Below are positions 4,898 through 55,352 of a stretch of 64,000 bases of DNA, piece by piece. The DNA is taken from positions 4,650,001 to 4,714,000 of the forward strand of contig NZ_CP020469.1 of the NCBI RefSeq assembly GCF_003031405.1, in the 5' to 3' direction. Below the pieces are notes generated by a model. The model was given only the letters and a program-made list of their open reading frames with translations. It made no database searches and was not told the DNA's origin. Position numbers and translations under genes: made by a program. Source of the stretch: Halomonas sp. 'Soap Lake #6' (GTDB taxonomy: Bacteria > Pseudomonadota > Gammaproteobacteria > Pseudomonadales > Halomonadaceae). Position 1 is the stretch's first letter. Each line of letters begins with the position of its first letter.

Positions 4898-6132
<1,235 letters not shown>

Positions 6133-48448: not shown

Positions 48449-49618
48449 TTAGGCGTTGATGCGGTCGGCAAAATCGACCAGATAGCGGTCGGTAATGCGC
48501 TGTTGCAGCATGAGGTTTTCCAGCGGCGGCACCGGGGTGTAGTCGTAGTCGATGTAGAGCTTGCCGCTTTTCAGCACTTCCTTGCTGTTCAGCTCTGGGT
48601 CGAACCAGGCTTCGCCGCCGAGCAGGTAGCCTTTGCGGGTGAGCTCGCGGAACTTGGCGTTGATACCTTCGATAATGTCGCGGGCCAGTGATGGGTGCAT
48701 GGGCTTATCGACTGCCCAGAAGTGCGCTTCGGCGATGGTGTCGGCGAGTACTTGGGCGGTGCGGGTGTAGGATTCAAAAGCGAACAGCGGATCTTCCGAG
48801 CAGGTGCGGGAGCCCCAGAAGCGGAAGCCTGATTTGTTGATCAGCGTGGTGACTTCGGCGGCGTTGAGGTAGCCCGCATCGGTGGCGGGGTCCTGCAGAT
48901 CCCAGAACACATCGTGGGTAATGCCGGTGACGCTGTTTACGGGCATGTTGGAGAGGGTTTTATGCCAGCCGATTTCGTTATCCAACCGTGCCCGGTGGCC
49001 AAGGGCTTTGGCGACGGCGGAGAGCGGGCGGCTTTGCTGGGCATTTACGTCGAAGTTTTGGAAGTTGGGCCAGATCACCATGGCTTCCCGGGCGCCGAAG
49101 TTTTCCCGGTACATCGCTGCCTCTTCTTTGGTGTCGCAGCCGTGGGCGGCCACGTAGGCGAAGCCGCGCAGCTTGGTGGCCACGCTGATTAGGGCAGTGG
49201 CGACGTTTTCGTTATCCAGCTCTGGCACGCCAAGGATGCGCGGCTTTACACCGAAGCGCTGTTCGGCGGCTAATAGGGCTTGGATGCCGGTTTTCTGGCC
49301 TGCGGGGGTAACGCTGCCGATGATGTTGGCGGTGGTTTCGTTTTCATCGCTGCCTTGTGCCACCCGCACCACCACGCAAAGAGTGCGGGTTTCTTCGACA
49401 ATGGCGCGCAGCGAGCGGGCTAGGGTGCCGGTGGTGCCCGCCGCGCCAATGGCGCTGTATATGTCGGTGGCCAGCACTGGGGTATCGAGGGGGAAGCGTT
49501 GGGCATCTGCCTCTGGGCCAGTGGCCACCAGCCCGATAATGGCGGTGGCCACGGTGCGGATGGGGCGGGTGCCTTCGTTGATTTCGACGACGCGGACGCC
49601 GTGATGGTAATCGGGCAT
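48449..49618 (-). CDS. FI: Tail sheath protein FI
   Basis: 389 residues, P2 gpFI family contractile sheath: MPDYHHGVRVVEINEGTRPIRTVATAIIGLVATGPEAD at the start, GFRFWGSRTCSEDPLFAFESYTR and RTAQVLADTIAEAHFWAVDKP in the C-terminal half. First gene of the late operon FI-FII-E-T-U-D. Confidence 0.96.
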   Translation of the reverse strand: MPDYHHGVRVVEINEGTRPIRTVATAIIGLVATGPEADAQRFPLDTPVLATDIYSAIGAAGTTGTLARSLRAIVEETRTLCVVVRVAQGSDENETTANIIGSVTPAGQKTGIQALLAAEQRFGVKPRILGVPELDNENVATALISVATKLRGFAYVAAHGCDTKEEAAMYRENFGAREAMVIWPNFQNFDVNAQQSRPLSAVAKALGHRARLDNEIGWHKTLSNMPVNSVTGITHDVFWDLQDPATDAGYLNAAEVTTLINKSGFRFWGSRTCSEDPLFAFESYTRTAQVLADTIAEAHFWAVDKPMHPSLARDIIEGINAKFRELTRKGYLLGGEAWFDPELNSKEVLKSGKLYIDYDYTPVPPLENLMLQQRITDRYLVDFADRINA

Positions 49619-49750: not shown

Positions 49751-50581
49751 ATGACAACTAGAAGGGGTAGGGAATTGGAAAATGTTAATAAGGGGCTGAT
49801 CTTCGGGTTTGCTGTTATTGCAGCTGTGGCTATCGGCGCGTATACGTTTCAGTTTTGGGGTTGGCCACTATCTAGAAACCCAAGTGATTGGGCGCATTTT
49901 GCAACGTACCTTTCTGGCACGGTTGGAGTGACTGCGGTGGTGGCTACGCTAATTGTTTTGGTGAGAACGCTGGGGCAGCAGCAAGCATTGATTGATAGTC
50001 AGAGTAAAATGCTTGAAAAGCAGGAAGGACAATTAAAGCTAACGCAGCAGCAGGTAGATGGTGAGGAAAGTAGGCGACAAGTCGAACTTGCCTATAATTG
50101 TGCAATTAATATTGTTCCTACGATGATTAATGAGTTAGAAAAACAAAAAGACATGACACTCATTAATTATTTAGGAAAAGAAGGGCTGGATATTGAGTTG
50201 CCAAGAGAAGCTGATCTAGATATTACAATTAGGGCAATGTTAAAGGAAGAGGATTACTATGCTTGGTTGGAGCACCTGCAGACTGGCTGGATGGTAGCCA
50301 CCTGCCAAGCGATTATTGGTAATGCTTATAGGTTGGGGGTTATTGTCTCAGATTGTTTGTATGTAGCATCTGAACTTGAAGACTACTTCAGAGCAATTAT
50401 TGGAGCTGAAAATTTCCGCTTGATCCGGTGTGGTATGTTATTTAACAAAAATATGCCTGGCTCAAATTTTAATAAGCATCAACGGTCGTTAAGAATTGTA
50501 GATGGTCAACAGTCGAATGATGTAGAGCAATTCTGGCATGATCTTGGTGAAAAAGTTTATAAAAAACAGCCCACTGATTAG
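49751..50581 (+). CDS. AT-rich membrane protein at the Z/fun site, candidate phage-exclusion gene
   Basis: 276 residues, on the strand opposite the tail genes. Two membrane helices (about 14-35 and 46-70) are followed by a coiled coil (QQQALIDSQSKMLEKQEGQLKLTQQQ) and a cytoplasmic domain of about 170 residues. The layout resembles putative AbiC-like proteins, by pattern only. A TTG at 49775 has the better ribosome binding site (AGGGGTAGGG) and could be the true start, giving a protein 8 residues shorter. It lies between FI and the fibre genes, exactly where P2 carries Z/fun, and is far richer in AT than its neighbours. Confidence 0.75.
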   Translation: MTTRRGRELENVNKGLIFGFAVIAAVAIGAYTFQFWGWPLSRNPSDWAHFATYLSGTVGVTAVVATLIVLVRTLGQQQALIDSQSKMLEKQEGQLKLTQQQVDGEESRRQVELAYNCAINIVPTMINELEKQKDMTLINYLGKEGLDIELPREADLDITIRAMLKEEDYYAWLEHLQTGWMVATCQAIIGNAYRLGVIVSDCLYVASELEDYFRAIIGAENFRLIRCGMLFNKNMPGSNFNKHQRSLRIVDGQQSNDVEQFWHDLGEKVYKKQPTD

Positions 50582-50611: not shown

Positions 50612-50800
50612 TTACTCGTTAGAATACGTGACTAATTTGCCATTGATGGTGATACGCGGATCTTCACCCACATCAATCGTTTCAAATTCATCGGGGGAGA
50701 CGGATTTTTGCTCAACCTTTATATCTGAGTAGGGTGGCTCGCCCGGTACGTTATTGGAGATCCACTGGCTGTGCTCGTTTAAAAAGTCTTTCAGTTTCAT
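50612..50800 (-). CDS. Small phage hypothetical protein behind the fibre genes
   Basis: 62 residues, MKLKDFLNEHSQWISNNVPGEP and so on; acidic, no motif known. Sixteen bases after the LamG-like gene, probably in the same operon. Confidence 0.65.
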   Translation of the reverse strand: MKLKDFLNEHSQWISNNVPGEPPYSDIKVEQKSVSPDEFETIDVGEDPRITINGKLVTYSNE

Positions 50801-50815: not shown

Positions 50816-51619
50816 TTAGCTAGTGATGCCGTATTTTTCCATCATGAATTTTTCAAGCGTCAGGCGGTCGCCTTCATGGTCGGGTTCGCTTAGATCCACA
50901 TCTAGTACGCCTGCCCAGCCAATTTGCCCCCGCATGGTGCGGAACATTTCCCACTCGCCTGCCTTGTAGCCGTAGTTGAGTGGGCGGCGGTCGTCGGGGT
51001 TCTCCGCTACTAGTTCACCATTCCAGAAGACTTTCAGCCCTTGGCGCACGGAGAACGTGCACTCGACCAGTGCTCGTGTGCCGCGCTTCTCAGTAGGCAC
51101 CGCGTAACGTAGGCGCTGAGGTTGTTCAGGAGCAACGCTGGCGTTCTCATAGATGACCAGCGACCTTAGATCTCTGTTCATTCCGATGTTGAATGCCACT
51201 ACACCAACGTTGTCATCATTGCTGGAAATAGTGTTGGTGGGGCTCACTAGCCGCTGGATCGCTGAGTTATTTGGCAGCGGTTCCATGACCATAAAGAGCG
51301 TCCAGGCGTCGGGGTTAACATCGGCATCTGTGTTGATGCGTACAAAGTTGCCATCCAAGTCGTCGGAGTCTGTGACAAACGACAGTGGACCCTGCTCGAA
51401 ATTGCCGATGACGATTCGGCCTGAGTTGATCGGGATCTCTTCTTCACGCAGTGCTCGGTTGCATACTGTGTCGGCAGAAGGTGTGCAGTATGCTGGGTCG
51501 ATAAAGGTATTCCAGCCATCAATGTGGCCCAGTGTTTGGCCTTCTGGCGTGAACGTGACTTGTTTTAGGTGGTGGCGACCCGCAACGCGGAGGCCGTGCA
51601 ACACTTGCAGATTGATCAT
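50816..51619 (-). CDS. Phage tail-fibre-associated protein with lectin-like fold (tentative)
   Basis: 267 residues from the ATG at 51619 (MINLQVLHGLRVAG), with GAGGAGATAACC upstream. The pattern SFVTDSDDLDGNFVRINTDADVNPDAWTLFMVMEPLP, later GTRALVECTFSVRQGLKVFWNGELVAENPDD and a terminal AGVLDVDLSEPDHEGDRLTLEKFMMEKYG, resembles LamG/concanavalin-like domains of phage and surface proteins. It takes the place of P2 gene G after the fibre gene, but is not a chaperone of the gpG type. Confidence 0.6.
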   Translation of the reverse strand: MINLQVLHGLRVAGRHHLKQVTFTPEGQTLGHIDGWNTFIDPAYCTPSADTVCNRALREEEIPINSGRIVIGNFEQGPLSFVTDSDDLDGNFVRINTDADVNPDAWTLFMVMEPLPNNSAIQRLVSPTNTISSNDDNVGVVAFNIGMNRDLRSLVIYENASVAPEQPQRLRYAVPTEKRGTRALVECTFSVRQGLKVFWNGELVAENPDDRRPLNYGYKAGEWEMFRTMRGQIGWAGVLDVDLSEPDHEGDRLTLEKFMMEKYGITS

Positions 51620-51633
51620 GGTTATCTCCTCAA

Positions 51634-53775
51634 TCAGATTGAAAATTGCTTTTGCTGCTCGCAAATGCGTTTACACATAAACTCGATAGCGCGTGTGCCG
51701 AGTTGCTGACGGTCTGCACGCGGTGGCCCCCATTCACCGAAGCGGGTTTCCAGCAGAAAAGCCTCACAGCCGTGTACTTCGTGAATGTAGCGATCCATGC
51801 CGCCGTTAATGAGGTCGGCGAGTCTAAAGACGCCATTGCCTGTATTGAGGTTGTCACTCAGGCCTTCGTACTCACGCCGAGCAAGGCGGTTAACATCGTC
51901 GGAGACTGCTTCGGCGATTTTGAAGCCTGGCTCTGTTAGCGAGCCTATCCAGAGCAGCCGCTCCGTGGTTGTGCTGGAGAAGTTGTGGTGGCCGATATAC
52001 ACCGCGCTCGGGTAGCGTGGTGGGATGGCCATCACTGCTTGGGTTTCCAGTTCTGAACCAGGTGCGTCGCCTTTGTCGCTCGCTGTGCTCTCTTCCCAGC
52101 CTGCGGGGAAGTTGCGGTTAATATTGATGCCATTCGGGTTTTGTCGCCGGCGTTTGTCGTACCCATAGGGGCAGATAAACGGCACAAACACGATGTTGCA
52201 GTTCCAGCGTAGCCAGCTCATGATTTCGGAGTTTCGCCAGCCGTAAACCAGGTTCCAGATAAACTGGAAATTTGAGGCGCTGGCCCCTGTTTCACTGCCA
52301 TGGATGTTGCCGAGTAGCACAATGGTGGGGCGTTCTGCGCGCCTCTCTGTGCGGTGGTAAACGTAGTCGGGGTTGAAGAAGGTGTATTCGCGGATCTCAT
52401 TGCCGAGGCTGTCGTGCCCGATAATGGAGGCGTCAATGTAGGTCGGGAACTCGCTTTTCATTCGATCCAGCAGCGCATAGCCATCGGTATGCCCGTTGGG
52501 GAAAACATCGGTGACGACCCCATAGAGGCTGGCGTTATCGCGGCGCGGTAGGCTGATGACGCCGTAGTTGTCCCAGACATCGCCCTCTTTTACATGTCGT
52601 GAGCTGGTGGGGAGGTGGGTAAATTCAACATCCGAGCCGCTATTCGTTCCGTAGTACTGCGAGCCGTCACGGTTCCCGCCATAGATCAGCAAGCGGTCTG
52701 CGTTTATGTAGCCCCAGTCGGGCAGGCCATTGCCGTGGAACTCTTTTATCCAGCGTGAAATTGGCTGGCCATGTTCGTCTAGCTCTAACGCAATAGCTCC
52801 GCTTTCAGCGGCCAGTTGCACGCGGGCGGTGCTGGTCCGGCGCCCGGTGTGGAACTCCCTTCGGGCGGGGCCTGGGTTGGTGCTAACTCTGCCATTGGGT
52901 TCGATAGTGATAAGTTCGTTACCCGCACTATCCGTCATTGAGTACGCGGGGCTGTGGGGGTTGTTGCCGTGGAACTCTTTTTGCAGAGGTGCGGGACGTG
53001 ATGAGGCGCGGATGGCATTGTTTAAGCGCGTTTTCAGCAGCTTGAGCGCTTTTCCGCTGGGGTAGGTGCCGTAAAAATCAGCGGTGCCCGCATTATTTTG
53101 GTAGAGCGCTACTAAGTCGTCGTTGTCTTTAATGGCTACCCAGAAAAACGCATCTGCCTCCGTGCCATCAATACCCGCTTGCTCGGTGTCGAAAATCCCA
53201 ACGGCCAGTTGGGCGATATCCCGGGCGACTTCGGCTCGGCCAGCGTGCTCGGCGGCTTCATCAACTTTTTCATCCAGCAGGGTGAGCGCGTCTGGAATAG
53301 CGACATTAATGACCCAATCGCGGGTGGCGATAATGGCGTAACTGCTGATTTTAGCCGTCACATTTTGTGCATTACCCACGACGGTGTAGAGATCAAACAC
53401 ATTTTCGACCAGGGTGGCGCCGCCACCGGCGGGTAGAAAGTCTGGTTCGCTGCCTGCGGTGGTGTAGCTGTAGAGCTGCTCTTGGCCGGTATCCGGGTCT
53501 TCAGCAAATACCCCTAGCTCACGCACGAAGAAGCCGTTGGTCAGTGACTCATTGGTCATGATGACGCGCATGCGTGAGGTGCCGTCGCCTACTACCTCTA
53601 TTTCCTGAATACTCAACGAGATCTTTTCGTTATTCAGTGCGCTCATGGTTTCAGGCGCGTTGCTTGTGCCATCGCCAAGCGCGACACGGGTGAAGTTGAG
53701 CGCGGCACCGGTCTGCGCTTTGGCTTGGAGGTTGCGGCCTGCGGTGGTTAAGACCAAGCCGGGGAAATTTGCCAT
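51634..53775 (-). CDS. H: Tail fibre H with C-terminal M14 zinc-carboxypeptidase-like domain
   Basis: 713 residues. The N terminus (about 1-170, MANFPGLVLTTAGRNLQAKAQTGAALNFTRVALGDG) is the P2 gpH-type baseplate-attachment domain. A middle stalk (about 170-400) has repeated EFHGN elements. The C terminus carries the complete M14 metallopeptidase signature: His492-x-x-Glu495 (GNIHGSE), Asn553-Arg554 (NINRNFPAGW), a third zinc His at 596/597 (IGHHN) and Glu676 (LLETRFGE). It probably binds and cuts a surface peptide or peptidoglycan stem. Such an enzyme at a fibre tip is unusual. Confidence 0.85.
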   Translation of the reverse strand: MANFPGLVLTTAGRNLQAKAQTGAALNFTRVALGDGTSNAPETMSALNNEKISLSIQEIEVVGDGTSRMRVIMTNESLTNGFFVRELGVFAEDPDTGQEQLYSYTTAGSEPDFLPAGGGATLVENVFDLYTVVGNAQNVTAKISSYAIIATRDWVINVAIPDALTLLDEKVDEAAEHAGRAEVARDIAQLAVGIFDTEQAGIDGTEADAFFWVAIKDNDDLVALYQNNAGTADFYGTYPSGKALKLLKTRLNNAIRASSRPAPLQKEFHGNNPHSPAYSMTDSAGNELITIEPNGRVSTNPGPARREFHTGRRTSTARVQLAAESGAIALELDEHGQPISRWIKEFHGNGLPDWGYINADRLLIYGGNRDGSQYYGTNSGSDVEFTHLPTSSRHVKEGDVWDNYGVISLPRRDNASLYGVVTDVFPNGHTDGYALLDRMKSEFPTYIDASIIGHDSLGNEIREYTFFNPDYVYHRTERRAERPTIVLLGNIHGSETGASASNFQFIWNLVYGWRNSEIMSWLRWNCNIVFVPFICPYGYDKRRRQNPNGININRNFPAGWEESTASDKGDAPGSELETQAVMAIPPRYPSAVYIGHHNFSSTTTERLLWIGSLTEPGFKIAEAVSDDVNRLARREYEGLSDNLNTGNGVFRLADLINGGMDRYIHEVHGCEAFLLETRFGEWGPPRADRQQLGTRAIEFMCKRICEQQKQFSI

Positions 53776-53779
53776 TGGG

Positions 53780-54466
53780 TTAGCCTCGTATGGTGATGTG
53801 GCGATAGTCGTGGTAAGCGGTGGCCTGGGCGGTCGTTGCTGCTTGGATGGCTAAGCGCAGTTGCTTCGGCGCAATGCGAACGCGGGTGGCACAGTGCTGC
53901 GCTGCCGCTGCTTTTAAGGCGCTGGGTTCATTTCTGAGTGTTGTTGGGCTCGGCCCGAGTTGGGTGCGATTGCCTTGGGCGGTCGCTGTGGCCAGGGTGA
54001 GCTCATGGGTGACACGGCTGCGAATGATGATGGCTTCTAGGCGGCTGCGGGCGTTTTTGGCGGCTTCGATGATGCGGATCAGGCGGTGGTATTCGCGCTC
54101 ACTGGTAAAGGCGTTGTCGCTGACGATACGAAAATGGAACGGTTGGCCACCGTAGTGGAACCACTCTTGCACTTCGGCATCGTCAAAGATGAGGTCCACA
54201 GCGCGCTGTACGGCAACGGGGGTGCCTTTGTGACGGTGCAGATAGACCGAGGCATCAATGGCGTTGCGCTTTTGCGATTCGCTCCACTGTTCATCCCATT
54301 CATCCACTGACAGTGCCCAGGCTAGCCAGGGGAGCAGCCGTTCTGGGCAGGTGTGGGGTTGCCAGAGTTCGCGGATGGGTACGCTAATGGTGTCGGTGCG
54401 GCTTAGGGTGCTGCTAATGGCGCGCTCTTGGGAGGTGGCATTGGGGGGTAGCAGGTGGTTAGCCAT
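53780..54466 (-). CDS. I: Phage tail protein I
   Basis: 228 residues from the ATG at 54466 (MANHLLPPNATSQERAIS), overlapping J by 8 bp as in P2. The frame stays open upstream only as a shadow of J. The conserved baseplate segment LPWLAWALSVDEWDEQWSESQKRNAIDASVYLHRHKGT is clear. The C-terminal 60 residues are Ala/Arg-rich and unlike P2. Confidence 0.92.
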   Translation of the reverse strand: MANHLLPPNATSQERAISSTLSRTDTISVPIRELWQPHTCPERLLPWLAWALSVDEWDEQWSESQKRNAIDASVYLHRHKGTPVAVQRAVDLIFDDAEVQEWFHYGGQPFHFRIVSDNAFTSEREYHRLIRIIEAAKNARSRLEAIIIRSRVTHELTLATATAQGNRTQLGPSPTTLRNEPSALKAAAAQHCATRVRIAPKQLRLAIQAATTAQATAYHDYRHITIRG

Positions 54467-55352
54467 TGACCACCTCGCTGTGAAGTTCGATGGCTTGGCA
54501 GTAGGGCGCTTGCTTGCGGGTGGTGGTGATGGTTTCCAGGGGGCTGAGTAGCTCGACCCGTTGCACGCCGGGTTGGTGTAGAGCGGCATAAACACCGGAT
54601 AGCGTGACCTGTGCGGCGATGCGGTGCTGTTCGTCGGTGTAGGTTTCAGCGGCGGCCAGGGCATTGGTTTTAACCACGGAGGCTTCTGGCCCCGGTAAAA
54701 TATGTAGGACGGCACGAATGGTGTAGCCCACCACCTCGGCGCTTACCGCTGTTGGGTGGTCGGTAAGGGGGCGGGTATCCGTTGCGTTGACGGCGTTATT
54801 CACGGTGGTGAGCAGCTCGGCGGAGGCTGTGCCGTTGCCCTGTTGGGAGAGCACTACCACGGTGACTTCGCCGGGGGCTTCGCTGAAGGCATCGGCATCT
54901 TTAACTTCGCCGCTGGCCGTGAGGGTGTGGTAGATGTAGGCGCGCTCTGGCCCGGCGGTGCTTAGGCCATCTAGTGAGAGCAGTACGCGGCGGCGCAGGG
55001 CTTCGTTACTTTCAACGGTCGCTGGCACTGGCGGCTTGGTGCTGGGGTCTCCGGGGGCAATCTCTAGCCTTTCAATATCAAAAAGCGCTGCCAGGTGTTC
55101 GAGGTCTTCATCCTGTGCGTAGGCGAGCATCACGGCTCTGGCCGCTTCGTTGATACGCTGGCGTAGCAGTAGCTCACGGTAGGCGGCCACTTCTAATAGC
55201 TTGGTCAGCGGTTCACTTTCGAGGCTGAGGGTGTCGGCTAGCTCTGGGTCTCGACTGATCAGGTCGGCGATCATTTCAGCCAGGATAGTTTCAAAATCCA
55301 GTGGTTCTATTACTGTAGGGGCGGGCAGCCGTGAGAGGTCAATCGTGCTCAT
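54459..55352 (-). CDS. J: Baseplate assembly protein J
   Basis: 297 residues, P2 gpJ family, the wedge component of the contractile baseplate: starts MSTIDLSRLPAPTVIEPLDFETILAEM; contains LDGLSTAGPERAYIYHTLTASGEVKDADAFSEAPGEVTVVVLS. Overlaps W by 4 bp and I by 8 bp. Confidence 0.95.
   Translation of the reverse strand: MSTIDLSRLPAPTVIEPLDFETILAEMIADLISRDPELADTLSLESEPLTKLLEVAAYRELLLRQRINEAARAVMLAYAQDEDLEHLAALFDIERLEIAPGDPSTKPPVPATVESNEALRRRVLLSLDGLSTAGPERAYIYHTLTASGEVKDADAFSEAPGEVTVVVLSQQGNGTASAELLTTVNNAVNATDTRPLTDHPTAVSAEVVGYTIRAVLHILPGPEASVVKTNALAAAETYTDEQHRIAAQVTLSGVYAALHQPGVQRVELLSPLETITTTRKQAPYCQAIELHSEVVNG

Follow-up and report, generated by a model that had tools for sequence, protein, structure and literature searches.

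The 713-residue protein described here is the side tail fibre, in the gpH position, of a P2-like contractile-tailed prophage of a Halomonas-type host, and its tip is a predicted M14 metallocarboxypeptidase-type domain that is, by its motif set, catalytically intact. The gene lies in a stretch of 64,000 nucleotides from Halomonas sp. 'Soap Lake #6' (hereafter the window). Together with a small gene directly downstream of it, referred to below as the partner, the fibre may form an exchangeable tip cassette, whose tip would free a surface polymer of the host of an amide-linked decoration; we put this somewhat short of an even chance.

The fibre gene is a single uninterrupted ATG frame of 713 codons that runs from 53775 to 51634 on the minus strand (Table 1). 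The genes follow the order J-I-H, with Baseplate_J, then Tail_P2_I and then the fibre gene, whose ATG is found 4 bases past gene I. The N terminus scores 29.8 bits against the Pfam tail-collar fibre model PF12571 (cut-off 23), and the first 205 residues match tail-fibre families in PHROGs; we take this domain to serve in baseplate attachment, as in gpH. At the other end of the protein, PF00246 (Peptidase_M14, Pfam) matches with 83 bits and an E value of 3.6e-23 (cut-off 21.6 bits), and phrog_4722, 'zinc carboxypeptidase', matches residues 436–609 (E 2.5e-17). The end of the intervening shaft, at residue 378, was placed by eye. A sequence-only reading of this DNA had proposed that a P2 gpH-type N terminus is joined here to an M14 domain, and the matches of PF12571 to residues 7–153 and of PF00246 to residues 433–681 of one frame bear this out. 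The same reading had allowed that the frame might prove to be two genes; such an artefact is ruled out by the one frame here, by an identical match with the same 713-aa frame in the IMG/VR provirus L085 (possibly the same strain as the source) and by one-frame fusions in relatives. These relatives are P0002, P0003, P0009, P0010 and G064.

Table 1. Coordinates, within the window, of the fibre gene, its parts and the genes around it
Feature	Position	Strand	Evidence
Gene J, Baseplate_J	54459..55352	-	PF04865, E 1.8e-19
Gene I, Tail_P2_I	53780..54715	-	PF09684, E 6.3e-44
Whole fibre gene, 713 aa, P2 gpH position	51634..53775	-	One frame; PF12571 + PF00246
gpH-type N-terminal domain, residues 7-153	53317..53757	-	PF12571 Phage_tail_fib; PHROG 7037, E 5.8e-45 over residues 1-205
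Shaft; three EFH repeats (first residues 267, 307 and 345)	52642..52977	-	Repeat places; cross-match of the SGNH-like fibre model
Predicted M14 zinc-carboxypeptidase domain, residues 433-681	51733..52479	-	PF00246; invariant catalytic columns
Partner gene, 267 aa, possibly concanavalin/laminin-G-like fold	50816..51619	-	P2 fibre-chaperone slot; adjoins fibres in 6/6 loci
Tail sheath gene (contractile tail), downstream of fibre	48449..49618	-	phrog_23 tail sheath, E 3.2e-130

At the DNA level, only four phage records matched the structural region, and none of them covered more than 1% of it. Between the partner and the sheath gene lie a 276-codon gene on the opposite strand (49751–50581, plus), with hydrophobic N-terminal stretches recognised by eye and below-cut-off Pfam and NCBIfam matches only, and a 62-codon frame (50612–50800, minus). 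The corresponding gap in G064 measures 166 bases, so that both look like inserted accessory genes. PADLOC gave no match for the fibre or for these two frames, and an anti-phage defence reading was rejected on that ground.

To examine the predicted catalytic apparatus, 43 M14 domains were aligned, namely those of 39 of the 80 viral loci together with L005, the window, the Halomonas phage YPHTV-1 and the Staphylococcus phage StB27. These domains are 19–30% identical to that of the window, and His492, Glu495, Asn553, Arg554, His597 and Glu676 are kept in all of them. The zinc ligands, an HxxE motif with a distal histidine, are represented by His492, Glu495 and His597 (43/43), and the catalytic glutamate, Glu270 of carboxypeptidase A, by Glu676 (43/43). 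The Asn/Arg pair that binds the carboxylate is Asn553-Arg554, likewise in 43/43, a conservation that is not independent because the pattern by which the viral loci were found fixed the NRN columns, whereas it left His492, Glu495, His597 and Glu676 free. Arg544, the equivalent of Arg127 in carboxylate binding, is present in 40 of the 43. The motif places given by the sequence-only reading thus stand for HGSE at 492–495, NR at 553–554 and Glu676; of the two histidines that it had named, 596 and 597, only the latter is conserved.

When compared with solved structures, the fibre protein alone retrieved REP34 first (E 0.00059) and MpaA second (E 0.0052), and a profile of the 43 domains matched carboxypeptidases O, B, A and T (E 1.7e-28 to 3.7e-18) as well as MpaA (E 6e-20). 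Asp661 sits 15 residues ahead of Glu676, and in carboxypeptidase B Asp255 stands at the same distance from Glu270. That Asp661 is the equivalent of position 255 in that enzyme is a guess, and because of the shared spacing a basic leaving residue becomes a testable one. The Asp661 column, the putative S1' one, varies widely among relatives (Ser in 9, Ala in 7, Thr in 5 and Asp in 4 of the 43 domains).

A recent origin of the tip from an M14 gene of the host itself was rejected, since at E≤0.001 the fibre is the sole M14 match in the host genome. A scan of genome contigs returned at least 289 relatives, of which 80, from many phyla to judge by their record titles, were kept and L005 alone was used. 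This last, from Acinetobacter puyangensis (4920–5834), is a 305-aa M14 relative, 26% identical and devoid of a fibre N terminus, with an Asp at the position of Asp661. In the phage M14 proteins L090, L095, L097 and L114 the N termini are unrelated and a long stretch continues past the M14 match, so that the domain has joined different tail-type proteins more than once.

Among close relatives, the parts of the fibre diverge unevenly. P0002 is 97% identical to the fibre of the window in the N terminus, 81% in the shaft and 86% in the M14 part, and P0003, from Halomonas sp. AOP43-D1-4, is 28% identical over residues 1–160 but reaches 73% over the shaft and 82% over the M14 domain. Judged by these identities, P0003 is the product of a module swap, with an N terminus different in kind. 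P0009 (H. venusta) and P0010 have the same architecture at 27–28% identity in the M14 part. P0004, which is the spike of L087, again has an N terminus of another kind, presumably of the tailspike head-binding type. The M14 fibre module is rare: among 82 genomes of the genus two have it, and among the 250 of the family sample the same two, one of which is the window's own.

In P2, a fibre chaperone gene follows the gene of the gpH side tail fibre. In the window no Caudo_TAP (PF02413) chaperone stands behind the fibre; the partner gene is there instead, and none was found in the whole host genome at E≤0.001, with E. coli positive among 14 control genomes. The partner starts 14 bases downstream of the fibre stop codon, and GAGGAG precedes its ATG. 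It has no Pfam or PHROGs match at E≤0.1 (scanned as a longer 282-codon frame) and no relative in phage records. Relatives do occur in 3 of 82 genomes of the genus, in 3 of 275 genomes of the family (with the L175 member as query), in four viral contigs, one of them that of the window's own phage, and in 1 of 293 genomes of the order sample, again the window's own. A profile search of the PDB with five partner proteins gave chance-level matches only, to fluorescent proteins. Laminin_G_3 (PF13385) is listed for 7 of 16 members of the partner family at the loose threshold of E≤1, the best match (E 7.7e-5) lying below the curated cut-off; it reaches 19.5 bits on the L174 partner, under the cut-off of 27.6, and is not listed at E≤1 for the partner of the window. 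The partner may adopt a lectin-type (concanavalin/laminin-G-like) fold.

Six distinct loci with a partner gene were read, and in every one a fibre or spike gene immediately precedes it. Three of these are M14-tipped (the window, G064 and L087) and three carry SGNH-esterase-like tips (L171, which is the locus of G013, as well as L174 and L175), so that the M14 tip looks interchangeable with an esterase-like one. Halomonas sp. AOP43-D1-4 also has both the M14 fibre P0003 and a partner, P0015, each listed with a contig of 53,976 bases, and the L087 partner is identical to P0012, a protein of Alcaligenes faecalis according to its source. At E<0.01, and in the stretches scanned, there is no partner gene at 78 of the 80 viral M14 loci, which makes the cassette a minority arrangement; none was found under the same terms in YPHTV-1, StB27, Pavlov and f2b1.

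The assignment of the alternative tips of L171, L174 and L175 as SGNH-esterase-like draws on motifs and on Pfam scores below cut-off. The GQS, HGE and DxxH blocks are invariant in all three, and the SASA model of Pfam matches them with E values of 0.016, 0.0041 and 0.0011 and with 15.3, 17.2 and 19.1 bits, all under the cut-off of 24.8. NCBIfam added nothing useful for these tips, and they match a solved phage tail spike (E 1.5e-27). A model built on these three also picks up the M14 fibres of L087 (E 3.7e-14), G064 (E 4.5e-13) and the window (E 4.1e-9), and by our reading this cross-match runs through the shaft. BLAST with the shaft only gave E values of 2.8e-8, 3.1e-6 and 0.042, the third not significant, and all of them lenient because the database consisted of ten proteins. 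These fibres share with that of the window a related shaft and a partner of the same family directly downstream, and differ from it in their SASA/SGNH-like tip, in their N terminus and in the lambda-like tail genes alongside.

The phages concerned are of different kinds. G064 has a tail sheath gene (E 4e-131). L171, L174 and L175 have phrog_469 tail proteins, those of L171 and L174 also matching lambda J ('central tail fiber J'), and L171 has a tape measure gene. L087 has a gene that matches a family 'released from the phage upon host infection' (E 4.2e-8), and a second one that resembles lytic tail proteins (E 7.5e-16). Together they suggest that this phage is short-tailed, though the assignment is weaker than the contractile and lambda-like ones. 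The pair of partner and fibre therefore spans contractile, lambda-like and probably short-tailed phages.

An M14 domain in a tail protein is not new, as it has been annotated in phages of Staphylococcus and Bacillus and in one Halomonas phage; what is new is the setting, namely a gpH-type fibre after J and I, a three-repeat shaft and a swappable two-gene tip cassette. StB27 orf 45, gp14 of the Bacillus phage Pavlov and YPHTV-1 gene 00042 all encode M14 proteins with the same catalytic residues inside a tail module. They are 22–28% identical to the fibre in the aligned M14 part and, unlike it, have no run of EFH repeats; PF12571, present in the fibre, is absent from YPHTV-1 and from the Pavlov-like L144. 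With P2 gpH, the fibre has in common the PF12571 N terminus, the place after J and I and a nearby sheath gene, whereas the enzyme tip and the lack of a Caudo_TAP chaperone in the genome set it apart. The M14 deacylases of the AstE/AspA type are a further point of comparison, for their model PF24827 also matches 29 of the 43 proteins of the alignment at E≤0.001. The fibre itself has no match to this catalytic-domain model at E≤0.1, so that its membership of this group was rejected although many relatives score, and neither AspA nor AstE is named among 60 of the 66 solved matches listed for the M14 family profile.

In the open-access literature, most subscription journals lying outside its scope, we found no study of an M14 fibre tip. 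Three papers state, respectively, that the zinc carboxypeptidase domain of Clostridium phage phiCP24R 'had not been previously reported in viruses' (PMC9234517), that the tape measure protein of T5 contains a zinc carboxypeptidase (PMC11445458) and that carboxypeptidases are rarely produced by phages (PMC6116005). As for YPHTV-1, the part of its description that is accessible reports a lytic Halomonas phage whose plaques have a cloudy halo, a usual sign of a virion depolymerase, and speaks there of an M15, not an M14, peptidase (PMC10305713). The link between this halo and the M14 tail protein is one that we infer ourselves, and it was counted in favour of decoration removal. In the same phage (L002, 8956–11284), the next genes after that of the M14 tail protein are annotated as O-antigen ligase and O-acetyltransferase, an order that suggests a coupling of surface-glycan change to a receptor enzyme. 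The sequence-only reading had regarded an M14 domain on a fibre as unexpected. A fibre tipped with an M14-type enzyme, its catalytic residues invariant in the domains aligned, is supported, and the surprise is smaller, because M14 tail proteins are annotated in other phages and PHROGs family 4722 bears the name of zinc carboxypeptidase.

How might such a tip work? Where related viruses carry an esterase-like tip this phage carries an M14 one, which would on that account take a small chemical group off the surface of its host, and the gpH side-fibre slot, with a partner and shaft common to SGNH-esterase-like fibres, points to a decoration of a surface polymer. Partner and tip would dock on this polymer at the cell surface, and the M14 site would hydrolyse an amide beside a free carboxylate, in parallel with the removal of acyl esters by the SGNH-like tips. 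A carboxypeptidase cuts an amide that has a free carboxylate next to it, a chemistry that uronic acids with amide-bound amino acids, known in other bacterial glycans, would fit. The simplest substrate would be a sugar acid, in the O-antigen or capsule, that bears an amino acid in amide linkage, a basic one if the place of Asp661 is a guide, and loss of this amino acid would uncover the next receptor or allow the phage to travel along the polymer. A search of the open-access literature gave no paper on amide-bearing Halomonas O-polysaccharides, and this was counted against the proposal.

The sequence-only reading had taken the M14 domain to imply either a peptide-bearing surface layer as receptor or the trimming of peptidoglycan stem peptides on entry. 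Neither follows, given the side-fibre slot and the partner and shaft common to SGNH-esterase-like fibres; that interpretation is thus partly supported, holding for the enzyme-tipped fibre and giving way to a glycan decoration as the likelier target. Trimming of a surface protein from its C terminus, be it a pilus, a porin or a surface-layer protein serving as a proteinaceous receptor, would agree with the full metallocarboxypeptidase signature, including the carboxylate-binding set of Arg544, Asn553 and Arg554, and with the peptide carboxypeptidases that are the nearest solved relatives of the family profile. However, the shaft and partner are common to esterase-like tips, which act on glycans by precedent, and the partner family weakly resembles lectin-type folds, so that we consider a protein target unlikely. 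As to stem peptides, the gpH slot is that of an outer side fibre and not of a penetrating part, and the NCBIfam model of MpaA reaches 13.3 bits on the fibre against a cut-off of 157. Such trimming is improbable to us, even though murein-peptide M14 enzymes exist and one of them, MpaA, is matched as given above, and although the M14 gene of StB27 has an endopeptidase tail gene on one side and, on the other, a peptidoglycan hydrolase gene that comes two genes after the tail fibre.

The M14 fold might also serve as a receptor-binding domain alone, with catalysis immaterial to infection. Fibre tips can reuse enzyme folds, and the activity of this one is predicted from sequence; yet the six catalytic columns stay unchanged in every aligned domain at the low identities noted above, which makes mere binding decidedly improbable. 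A poly-gamma-glutamate capsule was considered because of PghP, which the accessible part of its description presents as a free 23-kDa phage zinc metallopeptidase, akin to carboxypeptidase A, that clears a surface polymer (PMC4497714), a likeness to the fibre tip as proposed here. PghP belongs to another Pfam family, PF05908, for which the fibre has no match at E≤0.1, and CapC has no match in the whole host genome, B. subtilis alone being positive among 14 control genomes. This polymer was accordingly rejected as a likely target, and we give its degradation by the tip hardly any credence.

Phage receptor enzymes are mostly classed as polysaccharide lyases, glycosidases and esterases. By extension of the decoration-removing cassette, carboxypeptidase-type tips could form a class of glycan 'de-decorators', which would take amino acids off the uronic acids of Gram-negative O-antigens and capsules, would be traded with esterase tips by means of the two-gene cassette among contractile, lambda-like and short-tailed phages, and would have an S1' pocket fitted to the amino acid of the host; we regard this wider scheme as speculative and rather unlikely as it stands. 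Through its catalytic residues and its partner gene, the proposal can be tested directly. If it is true, it would give a function to the M14 domain that has so far been annotated in tail proteins and for which we found none stated, amide-linked surface decorations would be direct targets of phages, and a carboxypeptidase-type tip would be a tool enzyme for reading such decorations.
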